Of a DNA stretch of 23,358 nt, positions 14,320-17,511 are shown one piece after another (position 1 is the first letter of the stretch; each line of letters opens with the position of its first letter). Location of the stretch: IMG/VR virus record IMGVR_UViG_3300045413_000094, positions 1-23,358 of that record. One strand, 5' to 3'. The translations under genes and the position numbers were made by a program. The notes under the pieces are model-generated. The model did no database searches and was not told the DNA's origin. It saw nothing but the letters and a program-made list of their open reading frames with translations. The stretch comes from a virus.

Positions 14320-14756
14320 GAGCGTCCTTTCCAGTGGTAGTCTACAACGGTCAGTGGAGCCTCTGCGCGCCGTAGAGCGTCAGCAGGGCTCGACACAAGA
14401 GGCCAGTCCTGCGAGCCAGCCCAGAACTTGCTCGCGGCGATGAGGACCCAAGAGGAAATGGCCGGGAAGAGGTGTGCGCAGAGTGGATAGTATAAACGCA
14501 GAAGTTGCTCTCTAGCGTCGGCGCAGCGGGTCCGCTTGGCTTCGACGATGAGCCCGATGCCTGCGCTCGTGAGCGCGACGTAATCAGGCTGAGCGAAGCC
14601 GTAGCCGCCAGCGTCCCCGTACTCGATCCAAGGGCCAATGAAGTGCGTAGTGCCCTGTGGGAGCGAAGCGACGAAGTGCTTGGCGACCTTGCGCTCATAC
14701 GCGCGGCCCTCCGCCTTCGTTCCCCTTGTCCGCGAGGCCTTGACCGTTCGCGCCAC
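14316..14756 (-). CDS. PD-(D/E)XK nuclease / resolvase-like protein
   Basis: I take the GTG at 14756 as start, giving 146 residues and a 62-base overlap with the small terminase gene; a longer open reading reaches 14846 but adds a non-conserved, out-of-frame copy of the terminase end. The product has a basic, helical N-terminus with GTKAEGRAYERKVAKHF (E16, E21), then QPDYVAL (D58) and GLIVEAKRT (E72, K74). The E, D, ExK order is the PD-(D/E)XK nuclease signature seen in Holliday-junction resolvases and VRR-NUC-like enzymes. Between the terminase subunits it may trim or resolve branched DNA before packaging. The ribosome site for the GTG is weak (GCGGA), so the start is uncertain. Confidence 0.8.
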   Translation of the reverse strand: MARTVKASRTRGTKAEGRAYERKVAKHFVASLPQGTTHFIGPWIEYGDAGGYGFAQPDYVALTSAGIGLIVEAKRTRCADAREQLLRLYYPLCAHLFPAISSWVLIAASKFWAGSQDWPLVSSPADALRRAEAPLTVVDYHWKGRS

Positions 14757-15435
14757 GATCCGCGCTAACGTCAACGGCGGTTGCACTAAGCGTCTTCCCG
14801 GCGTCAGGAGCAAGAGCGTGCTGCTCCCGGATAGAGCGGATTTCATCGGGGCTCAACCCCATGTTCACGTTGAGGTTCTTCTGCACCGGGCTAAAGCCGG
14901 CCCGGTCGAGCATGTCCGTGCCGAGCTTCCGCAGGGTGTCAATCGGGAGCACTTCACCTTCCGCTGCGAGCCGATTTCCGATGATGAGCAGCACGTCGAG
15001 GGCCGTTTCCTTCAGCTTCGCGCTGATCCCGAGGGCTTGATCGTCCCGCACGCGCATATAGTGCATGAGGAGCTGCTGGAACGCGGGCGAGCGCTGAAGG
15101 AGACCAATAGTGGCCTCGCTCATCCGCATAACCTGCGCGACCTCGCTGCGCTTCGCGCCAGCGGCAAGAAGCCGAGCAACTTCGTGATGCCGAGCGCGGA
15201 TAACGCCAAGCTCCGCGATGGGCGCCTGCGCGTAGGACTTCGGCCTTACCGCTGCCGCTTCGACCTCCGTCAGCTCCCGTACTTCGAGTATGCTCGGCTC
15301 CGCGCTAAGCGGACGCGGCGAGTTCCACGCCTCCGGCCCCTTGAGCGGGAGGTCCTTCACCGTGATAACGGGCCGGTCGAGGATCTTCCCGATCGAGGTC
15401 GTGCGACCGCCGGGGGAGAGTTGAGCAGAGGACAT
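14695..15435 (-). CDS. terS: Probable terminase small subunit
   Basis: The 246-residue protein opens the late operon. Residues about 77-118 form a helix-turn-helix-like block (HHEVARLLAAGAKRSEVAQV, then MSEATIGLLQRSPAF), followed by a long helical region (LKETALDVLLIIGNRLAAEG, LRKLGTDMLDRAGF) and then a motif SPVQKNLNVNMGLSPDEIRS. A DNA-binding N-terminus, an oligomerisation helix and the 'GF.P...N.N...LS..E' end are typical of small terminases in phages with this terminase type. The C-terminal tail is disordered. There is no good ribosome binding site before the ATG at 15435, so it may be poorly translated, leaderless, or start elsewhere. Neighbouring nuclease and large-terminase genes support the role. 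Confidence 0.75.
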   Translation of the reverse strand: MSSAQLSPGGRTTSIGKILDRPVITVKDLPLKGPEAWNSPRPLSAEPSILEVRELTEVEAAAVRPKSYAQAPIAELGVIRARHHEVARLLAAGAKRSEVAQVMRMSEATIGLLQRSPAFQQLLMHYMRVRDDQALGISAKLKETALDVLLIIGNRLAAEGEVLPIDTLRKLGTDMLDRAGFSPVQKNLNVNMGLSPDEIRSIREQHALAPDAGKTLSATAVDVSADRGANGQGLADKGNEGGGPRV

Positions 15436-15503: not shown

Positions 15504-15655
15504 GAGATTTGTATGGCAGTAAAAACTCGTGCGCAAATTATGTTGTGGGACCCCCGGCGGCGGCAGGGCGGGGGCCGAGTCGTAGGGGGGGGGCGTGGGT
15601 TCCAGATCAGGGGGCCAGCGTAACAGCCAGGGCCGGCCCCGAGTCACAGTGCGAC

Positions 15656-15799
15656 TGCTAGTCAATTGCAATGCACCATTAACTCATTGAGATCATTGAG
15701 TCTTTCCGGGGTCAATACATTTTCTACATAGAAAATGTATGGAAAGCGAAAAGACTCAATGATCTCAATGAGTTAGTTGCGTGTTGCAATTGACTAGCA
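15656..15799. repeat. Nested long inverted repeat (cruciform-capable)
   Basis: Three stems nest within 144 bases. The outer stem has 16 bp (15656-15671 with 15784-15799, TGCTAGTCAATTGCAA). The middle stem has 26 perfect bp (15680-15705 with 15750-15775), made of two tandem CTCAATGA-type units per arm. The inner stem has 12 bp around a CA centre (15715-15726 with 15729-15740, ATACATTTTCTA). A further CTTTCC/GGAAAG pairing (15702-15707, 15741-15746) flanks the inner stem. It contains no gene. Such a structure could be an origin, a regulator-binding array or a structured RNA. Confidence 0.88.
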
Positions 15800-15818
15800 A
15801 ATGCAGGCTTGCTTCAAA

Positions 15819-15840
15819 ACTCAACGATTTCAATGAGTTA
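15819..15840 (+). repeat. Third copy of the CTCAATGA iteron element
   Basis: This 22-base element begins ACTCAACGAT and ends CAATGAGTTA. It matches 20 of 22 bases of the right arm at 15754-15775 and lies 65 bases after it in the same orientation. It is outside the inverted repeat, so the sequence itself seems to be kept and not only the stem. Confidence 0.8.
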
Positions 15841-15851
15841 GACGATTTTAC

Positions 15852-15875
15852 CACATTTATTCCAGAATAAATGTG
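15852..15875. promoter_or_regulatory. 24-bp palindrome, ACATTT-type operator candidate
   Basis: Two 11-base arms (CACATTTATTC and GAATAAATGTG) surround a CA centre. The inner stem at 15715-15740 has the same plan: ACATTT, four bases, CA, four bases, AAATGT. Two sites of the same form 137 bases apart suggest one dimeric DNA-binding protein. Confidence 0.65.
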
Positions 15876-15882
15876 ATACCAC

Positions 15883-15951
15883 CTCTAGTTCGCCAGCAAC
15901 TAGAGCCTGTATCACGAAACTGTGATAGCGCTCGCCCACATAGGGCTATCA
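15883..15951. repeat. Cluster of short inverted repeats
   Basis: CTCTAGTT (15883-15890) pairs with AACTAGAG (15898-15905). TATCAC (15910-15915) pairs with GTGATA (15922-15927) over a six-base spacer, and another GTGATA lies at 15873-15878. TGATAGC (15923-15929) pairs with GCTATCA (15945-15951). The overlapping TATCAC/GTGATA motifs look like operator half-sites upstream of the early operon. Confidence 0.6.
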
Positions 15952-15993: not shown

Positions 15994-16002
15994 TGTGGAT
16001 AA
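15994..16002 (-). promoter_or_regulatory. Perfect DnaA box (TTATCCACA)
   Basis: TGTGGATAA on the plus strand is the complement of the canonical DnaA box TTATCCACA. A nine-base match can occur by chance, but its place in the palindrome-rich control region makes host DnaA involvement in phage replication or early transcription plausible. No second perfect box was seen nearby. Confidence 0.5.
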
Positions 16003-16076: not shown

Positions 16077-16571
16077 ATGTTCAATATGACCGCAATCGAA
16101 CTAACCCTAAACGATCAGGTCTACACGGTTCCAGCCACGGAACTTAGGCCGGAACAGGTCGAACACATGATCCGCTATGCGGTGCGCGTGCGACTCGATC
16201 GGGCAGCTGCCGGGCTGGCCGATGATCCGGCCAAGGCGCGGGAAAAGCGCCTTGCCAGGATCAAGACGGTCTACGAAATCGAGGCTGTTCAGGAACGCGC
16301 CGCTAAGCGTGATCCGCTGGAAGTCGAGATTGTCAACATGATGCACAAGTGGCTGCGCGACAACCACAACGAAAAGTCCGCCGTGTTGCGCGACTCGACA
16401 ACCATCAATGCGTGCGCGGCTCTTGCCGCAAAGTACCTGAAGGATGATCCGACCCTTGGCACTTCTGAGCAGCGAGTCGCGGGATGGATCAAGCACTTCA
16501 GCGAACAGGCTGCGACCGTGGTTGCTGCCGCTGCGGCAGCTCTTGCCGCTTCGAAGAACGTCAAATTCTAA
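16077..16571 (+). CDS. First early protein, unknown function
   Basis: The 164-residue protein starts at an ATG with AGGAG eight bases upstream. The N-terminus (MTAIELTLNDQVYTVPATEL) looks beta-type, and the rest is helical: RPEQVEHMIRYAVRVRLDRA, a charged segment around residues 50-80, RDSTTINACAALAAKYLKDD, and an Ala-rich end (AATVVAAAAAALAASKNVKF). No membrane segment or catalytic motif is recognised. It is the first gene after the control region and is followed by a strong hairpin, so it is probably expressed early and separately, as host-takeover or regulatory proteins often are. The last 13 bases of its reading frame including the stop (CGTCAAATTCTAA) recur at the end of the gene at 19058-19372. 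Confidence 0.8.
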   Translation: MFNMTAIELTLNDQVYTVPATELRPEQVEHMIRYAVRVRLDRAAAGLADDPAKAREKRLARIKTVYEIEAVQERAAKRDPLEVEIVNMMHKWLRDNHNEKSAVLRDSTTINACAALAAKYLKDDPTLGTSEQRVAGWIKHFSEQAATVVAAAAAALAASKNVKF

Positions 16572-16577
16572 CCGCGC

Positions 16578-16604
16578 AAGGGCCAGCTAGAAAGGCTGGC
16601 CCTT
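16578..16604 (+). terminator. Hairpin after first early gene
   Basis: AAGGGCCAGC pairs perfectly over 10 bp with GCTGGCCCTT, with a seven-base loop, seven bases after the stop. It has no T-run (CAGCTCTAC follows), so it may be a processing or stability hairpin and not a full terminator. Confidence 0.55.
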
Positions 16605-16627
16605 CAGCTCTACACGGAGTCCTATCC

Positions 16628-16846
16628 ATGGAACCCACACTTGCCGAAATCTATGGACTGCGCGACGAGTCGCAGTCCTATCCGCCGACCGTGACGGAAA
16701 TCAAAGAGTTGATTGTCCGCATGGCTGTCGCCCAGGACCCGCGAACCTTCGAGGTCGCGCGGACCTACGGTAAACATCAGGAAGCGCTTATGGCCCTGCA
16801 ACGGGCTAAGGCTGATCTTCGCTACTGGTTCGTTCCCCGCGACTAA
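16628..16846 (+). CDS. Small early protein, unknown
   Basis: I prefer the ATG at 16628, preceded by the GGAGTCCTATCC leader, over an in-frame start far upstream inside the previous gene. The 72-residue product is helical and mixed in charge (MEPTLAEIYGLRDESQSYPP, TVTEIKELIVRMAVAQDP, QEALMALQRAKADLRYWFVP). No family is recognised and there is no signal or membrane segment. It lies alone between two hairpins and shares its translation leader with the next gene, so the three first early genes look like a modular series. Confidence 0.78.
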   Translation: MEPTLAEIYGLRDESQSYPPTVTEIKELIVRMAVAQDPRTFEVARTYGKHQEALMALQRAKADLRYWFVPRD

Positions 16847-16853
16847 CCCTTAG

Positions 16854-16885
16854 GAAAGGGCCGACCTGCAAGGGCCGGCCCTTTC
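16854..16885 (+). terminator. Hairpin after second early gene
   Basis: GAAAGGGCCG pairs with CGGCCCTTTC over 10 bp with a 12-base loop, eight bases after the stop. TCTCTAACT follows, a weak U-rich tail. It resembles a partial intrinsic terminator. Confidence 0.6.
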
Positions 16886-16906
16886 TCTCTAACTGGAGTC
16901 CTATCC

Positions 16907-17137
16907 ATGTCTGACCTGTCGCGCTACACGCTAGCAGTCCGCTACCGGGACGAAAAAGCCTTCACAGAGCACGATTTGGGAACCGACGAATCCGCCGCTA
17001 TCCTGGCCGCTTACAAATTCGACTATGAATCGCGCCCGTTCGCTGATCTGCTGTATCATCAATTCTTCCTACTGCGCGGTGACTCCATCGTGTACGGAGT
17101 CAACGCGGACTACAACGTTTCCGTTGTTTTCGCGTAG
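16907..17137 (+). CDS. Small early protein, unknown
   Basis: The 76-residue product (MSDLSRYTLAVRYRDEKAFT at its start) is acidic and seems alpha/beta, with a tail of beta strands (FFLLRGDSIVYGVNADYNVS). The ATG has GGAGTCC ten to sixteen bases upstream, in the same GGAGTCCTATCC leader as the preceding gene. I do not recognise the family. A strong terminator-like hairpin follows, separating this three-gene set from the helicase unit. Confidence 0.78.
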   Translation: MSDLSRYTLAVRYRDEKAFTEHDLGTDESAAILAAYKFDYESRPFADLLYHQFFLLRGDSIVYGVNADYNVSVVFA

Positions 17138-17300: not shown

Positions 17301-17511
17301 CACGCCAGCGACCGCCCCACGGGCAGCTAGCCTCGGGACCTCTATTTTCGCTAACGCCTATTTCCTTACCCCCATGCCCTGGCTGAAAAAATAGACCGCA
17401 TTTGAAAAAAAAAAAATTAAAACCCAACAAACCATACGAGGAGGACGGGGTGTCAAAAAATAGGAAACCAGCAAAAATAGCGTTCTTACACCAAACCGCC
17501 ACACTTTCCTC

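Follow-up and report, generated by a model that had tools for sequence, protein, structure and literature searches.

A nested inverted repeat (IR) of 144 bases lies in the divergent control region of a 23,358-nucleotide viral DNA (IMG/VR record IMGVR_UViG_3300045413_000094, positions 1 to 23,358; hereafter the window). The repeat is real, under selection and lineage-specific. Judged from sequence, its best explanation is a DNA-level array of putative protein-binding sites in the late/early control region, probably for a host-encoded binder, to which we give a probability of about 45%. The original prediction had named an operator array among three options, and this option gains support from three directional copies of a 21-bp motif in the window and from clusters of the same motif in unrelated phages.

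Architecture of the nested repeat and its surroundings

The repeat search identifies two arms of 71 nt each (15656-15726 and 15729-15799) that are 86% complementary and separated by 2 nt. Perfect stems of 16, 26 and 12 bp alternate with paired unmatched spacers of 8 and 9 nt around the 2-nt centre (Table 1). This is exactly the nested structure that had been predicted, and it stands far above chance. In a gapless scan of the 23-kb window the IR scores 41; the runner-up, which is built from the same 21-bp motif, reaches 16, and Markov shuffles of the window give 11-15. Single-strand folding of the DNA yields z = -14. The GC content of the region is 37-39% vs about 60% for the window, in agreement with the AT-rich siting described earlier.

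The arm-to-arm alignment contains 10 mismatches in two blocks, leaving the perfect runs of 16, 26 and 12. All 10 fall within the 17 spacer positions and none in the 54 stem positions; three perfect runs this long would arise with P = 0.0026 if the mismatches were placed randomly. Perfect stems with mismatches confined to the spacers are as expected of selection on stems with free spacers, and the blockwise pattern thus bears out the earlier remark that such a stem is rarely kept without selection. An assembly fold-back is dismissed because it would give a perfect palindrome, not 10 clustered mismatches. The 26-bp stem was also said to be made of tandem CTCAATGA-type units, and these are indeed present as TCAATGA-N2-TCAATGA.

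The IR sits in a 641-bp gap between the leftward TerS/late genes and the rightward early genes. The same gap contains further repeats and a single perfect DnaA box, for which the chance expectation in this region is about 0.5%. Positions 15849-15927 form overlapping hairpins with a common half-site, TATCAC/GTGATA, the nested repeat at 15873-15915 among them. Further into the early region, a 51-nt repeat (16580-16630 and 16859-16909, 75% identical) precedes two early genes; in each copy a hairpin comes first, and after it a ribosome-binding site and start codon (GGAGTCCTATCCATG). The first early gene, E1, was considered as the motif binder and set aside, as it gave no convincing family match.

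Table 1. Coordinates of features in the window, and of A-/T-tract elements in other loci (own numbering of each locus)
Feature	Position	Strand	Source
TerS (small terminase) homologue, first late gene	14695..15435	-	family comparison
C9 run, TerS strand	15585..15593	-	comparison of 13 divergent gaps
Outer stem, left arm TGCTAGTCAATTGCAA	15656..15671	+	repeat search, arm alignment
Unmatched spacer, partner 15776-15783	15672..15679	.	arm alignment
Middle 26-bp stem, left arm; contains motif copy 1 (15680-15700, minus strand)	15680..15705	+	arm alignment, motif matrix
Unmatched spacer, partner 15741-15749	15706..15714	.	arm alignment
Inner 12-bp stem, left arm ATACATTTTCTA	15715..15726	+	repeat search, arm alignment
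IR centre CA	15727-15728		repeat search, arm alignment
Inner 12-bp stem, right arm	15729..15740	-	repeat search, arm alignment
Middle 26-bp stem, right arm; contains motif copy 2 (15755-15775, plus strand)	15750..15775	-	arm alignment, motif matrix
Outer stem, right arm	15784..15799	-	repeat search, arm alignment
Motif copy 3 CTCAACGATTTCAATGAGTTA, outside IR	about 15820..15840	+	repeat search, arm alignment, motif matrix
Second short IR, 14-nt arms, CA centre	15849..15878	.	repeat search
Third IR, also nested: GTGATAC-cac-CTCTAGTT-n7-AACTAGAG-cct-GTATCAC	15873..15915	.	repeat search
Perfect DnaA box TTATCCACA, sole one in window	15994..16002	-	box search
First early gene E1, positional homologue across family, function unassigned	16077..16571	+	family comparison
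A-/T-tract element, L190	1684-1935
A-/T-tract element, L183	4886-5122
A-/T-tract element, L191	2378-2600
A-/T-tract element, L194	8183-8194
A-/T-tract element, L202	3486-3498
A-/T-tract element, L206	4557-4724
A-/T-tract element, L207	1224-1232
A-/T-tract element, L213	2951-2960
A-/T-tract element, L053	43141-43152

The 21-bp motif in the window and in other genomes

The two arms of the middle stem carry a directional, near-palindromic 21-bp motif, CTCAATGATYTCAATGAGTTA, in inverted orientation. Written in one orientation, the three copies in the window read CTCAATGATCTCAATGAGTTA, CTCAATGATCTCAATGAGTTA and CTCAACGATTTCAATGAGTTA; neighbouring copies are about 75 bp (7 helical turns) and about 65 bp (6 turns) apart. 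The third lies outside the IR and was not listed in the original prediction. A motif matrix made without the window assigns these copies 30-32 bits, the next window match 12.7 and Markov shuffles 9.8 at most; the matrix was assembled from matches that the window's own motif had retrieved, which weakens it as evidence for a binding-site array.

When viral contigs were scanned for the inner 18 bp of the motif, 119 loci matched; 5 of these carry clusters of at least three copies. Clusters of 2-4 copies are found in unrelated viruses (L072, L089, L090, L104, L143, Rhizobium phage N65 and Myxococcus phage Mx1), and T4-like contigs are among the unrelated carriers. A flanking TTA outside the search pattern accompanies 15 of the 119 viral matches (4.7 expected, P = 7e-5) and recurs in clusters as it does in the window. 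N65 has two copies among ATCTCCGCC repeats, beside helicase/primase and between convergent genes; Paracoccus R3 has a single copy among CCATTATACT repeats near a primase gene; and in Mx1 two copies alternate with ATCCGTTATAGTGGATTA. Single copies occur in Rhizobium TRX32-1 and Palo, and the 16-3 attP region contains a partial match. In L104 and L143 the array, as read by eye, lies between divergent promoter-like sequences. In L089 (5632-5846) the motif belongs to a longer unit of about 40 bp that is directly repeated every 63-65 bp, upstream of packaging genes. The exact 20-mer found no match in viral contigs, and a text search of the literature for the motif letters found none either.

The motif is present in a few bacterial genomes, and most others have none. 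A myxobacterial genome, G010 (L297, L299-L309), has 12 dispersed copies with at most 2 mismatches, against 0 for the reversed-pattern control. In the genome-contig set, TTA flanks 8 of 49 near-exact matches (6.2 expected, P = 0.28); because the flank is not enriched, most of these matches are attributed to chance. Counting exact matches only, the motif occurs in 1 of 385 Alphaproteobacteria genomes, a rarity that would be surprising for a general host factor and argues against one as the binder.

No protein family is common to more than 3 of the 13 motif-bearing phage records, several of which are partial, and the one family found in three is TerL. As the phages have no common protein family other than ordinary structural genes, the binder is probably encoded by the host, an argument from absence. 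A broader proposal, which we consider possible but doubtful, is that the 21-bp motif is the unnamed putative site of one conserved host protein, recruited by unrelated phages to origins and divergent control regions and multicopy in some bacterial genomes; the nested IR would then be its most elaborate arrangement here. If the motif is indeed such a site, shared by phages and bound by a host factor, a single gel shift would be enough to name a protein that several unrelated phages need at their control regions, and an otherwise puzzling palindrome would be explained. The settings of the motif elsewhere vary (the 16-3 attP, convergent genes in N65), so it may not have one common function.

Related phages and competing explanations

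The window is a fragment from a podophage family in which Caulobacter phage Kuura, with a TerL of 38% identity, is the only named member found. Single-protein searches yielded no close relatives of the window; the family was reached by TerL alignments only, which added about 35 more IMG/VR loci to the Kuura-like group. The relatives that are long enough and readable share one layout, with TerS/late genes running one way, a divergent gap and early genes opposite. The fast-evolving E1 comes first among the early genes, which include a UvrD-like helicase. None of the relatives' divergent gaps, that of Kuura included, contains a comparable nested IR. They have short inverted repeats at most: a perfect pair of 14 bp around a 2-nt centre (G001), a 16-bp pair (L215) or several (G006), and in most others inverted repeats are at or near shuffle level. 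None of the Kuura-like relatives sampled carries the 21-bp motif, which counts against a binding-site array as well, and no DnaA box was found in the relatives' divergent regions. Conservation among related phages, for which the original prediction had suggested looking, is therefore not seen in these gaps, and since they have neither such an IR nor the motif, the IR is taken to be lineage-specific. Only the gaps of G001 and G006 feature near-perfect matches to sigma54 promoters, three each and in both directions (L190 730-781, L191 1563-1654); the window has no such strong matches.

Under the origin cruciform reading offered earlier, the motif copies would be iterons, the AT-rich stretch 15650-15900 an unwinding element and the IR a candidate for cruciform extrusion, and host DnaA would assist at its box. 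The base composition and the nearby perfect DnaA box are consistent with this, as are the N65 copies among phage-specific short repeats beside helicase/primase and the R3 copy near primase. The relatives' divergent regions, however, have no such IR, motif or DnaA box; no initiator gene adjoins the IR, and none was recognised among the flanking genes. In their early regions the relatives also share a different element that resembles an origin: an A-tract with inverted arms on either side, frequently accompanied by tandem units (z 5-16). It is seen in Kuura, G001, G002, G004, L202, L206, L207 and L213, and G006 has the same large inverted repeat, but around a short T-tract. A weaker counterpart with CTATTT/AAATAG units is present in the window at about 17.34-17.49 kb, around 17405-17416 (P about 0.002 with gentler gap costs, 0.08 with strict ones). 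Because the window has this counterpart, the nested IR is less likely to be the primary origin. The DnaA box and the clusters beside primase genes still favour the cruciform reading, which is nevertheless weakened, and we regard it as rather unlikely. The arms of the A-/T-tract elements are long and of lineage-specific sequence (17337-17487 in the window). Packaging could offer another role for the IR, which, inside a direct terminal repeat (DTR), would aid the terminase in recognising or duplicating the repeat. Hairpins are thought to act in this way at T7 concatemer ends. The Kuura genome has 606-bp DTRs (PMC9959647), located upstream of TerS at a place equivalent to the window gap, and should the window be organised like Kuura, the IR would fall within the terminal repeat. 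Each of 13 divergent gaps examined in the family, the window's among them, contains at least six consecutive C on the TerS strand, and this run lies 77-317 nt upstream of TerS (P about 1e-11 from shuffles, combined); in Kuura it is just inside the DTR end. Yet no comparable IR is present in the DTR region of Kuura or in those of other relatives, and the motif also occurs far away from packaging genes, both in phages and at bacterial loci, which makes a packaging element quite improbable.

The remaining explanations concern the hairpin itself. What speaks for a structured RNA, or a long hairpin in a 5' leader serving for example as an RNase III or regulatory site, is the fold energy: -98 kcal/mol with z about -15.5 (z = -15.6 as weighed for this reading), similar on the other strand and with symmetric internal loops. 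An Rfam scan gave no match, motif copy 3 lies outside the hairpin and the copies elsewhere are not in such a hairpin, so that the structured RNA once envisaged for the repeat is very unlikely. Its 16-bp perfect terminal inverted repeats and AT-rich, foreign-looking composition would suit a palindromic MITE-like mobile element inserted in the control region. This is even harder to credit, given that no target-site duplication is apparent by eye, that the outer stem has 10 single exact matches in viral contigs, judged near chance, and that no DNA similarity to the IR region was found in phages and plasmids. A protelomerase site (hairpin telomere) is suggested by the concentric inverted repeats, which are also a feature of the N15 tos site. 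We practically discount it: PF16684 is absent from 8 records (the window, six relatives and Kuura), although the window is a fragment and the gene could lie outside it; Kuura has direct terminal repeats; and the IR centre is not a perfect palindrome. The IR may serve as a worked case of a striking hairpin for which duplex binding sites are a better explanation than a cruciform or an RNA.

Candidate binders and comparison with known systems

For the binding-site array we infer a binder, DNA bending and a regulatory consequence. A single sequence-specific protein, for which the host is a likelier source than the phage, would occupy the mirror-image motif pair and the third copy, which form the core of the array in the divergent TerS/early control region. 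With the sites about 75 and 65 bp apart, the DNA could fold into a compact nucleoprotein complex, which would set the activity of the control region bidirectionally. Further symmetric sites may be provided by the outer and inner stems, and the hairpin potential would be a by-product of the mirror-image arrangement.

The motif may be a bending site of the IHF (DNABII) type, with an AT tract, 8 nt and a WATCAANNNNTTR-like core. The lambda H' site likewise has an 8-nt gap between A-tract and core. Each of the three window copies matches 12 of 13 positions of the IHF consensus WATCAANNNNTTR (PMC10380432), and of 49 motif copies in all, 10 match fully, 34 have one mismatch and 5 have two. The AT fraction in the roughly 6 nt 5' of the motif is 0.6-0.8 vs a background of 0.38-0.48, an enrichment confined to that side. 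That all three window copies miss one consensus position counts against the assignment, and IHF as putative binder is a lead only, based on resemblance. The near-palindromic core and its CTCAATGA half suggest a dimeric helix-turn-helix protein as the main alternative.

Among known systems, phage operator arrays such as lambda OL/OR, with three operators between divergent promoters, also combine a divergent control region with three sites that are nearly palindromic. Their sites are close together, whereas those in the window are 65-75 bp apart; moreover, no repressor gene was found in the window, and its motif is common to unrelated phages without a common protein. Iteron origins (lambda ori, plasmid oriV) are similar in their repeated sites of about 20 bp (three here), AT-rich DNA and one DnaA box, but no initiator adjoins the IR, and the relatives, in which it is not conserved, have another origin-like element in common. 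N15-type protelomere sites (tos/telRL) have the concentric inverted repeats, but differ in the imperfect centre of the IR and in that no protelomerase was detected. IHF sites (oriC, attP, sigma54 promoters) resemble the motif in 12 of 13 core positions, in the 5' AT tract with about 8 nt spacing, and in attP-like, origin-like and promoter-like intergenic settings. Position 2 of the IHF core is A, however, where the window copies have T or C, and the motif conserves a CTCAATGA half and TGA(G/C) positions that the IHF consensus does not require. Unlike IHF sites, the motifs in the window form a mirror-image array inside a nested palindrome.
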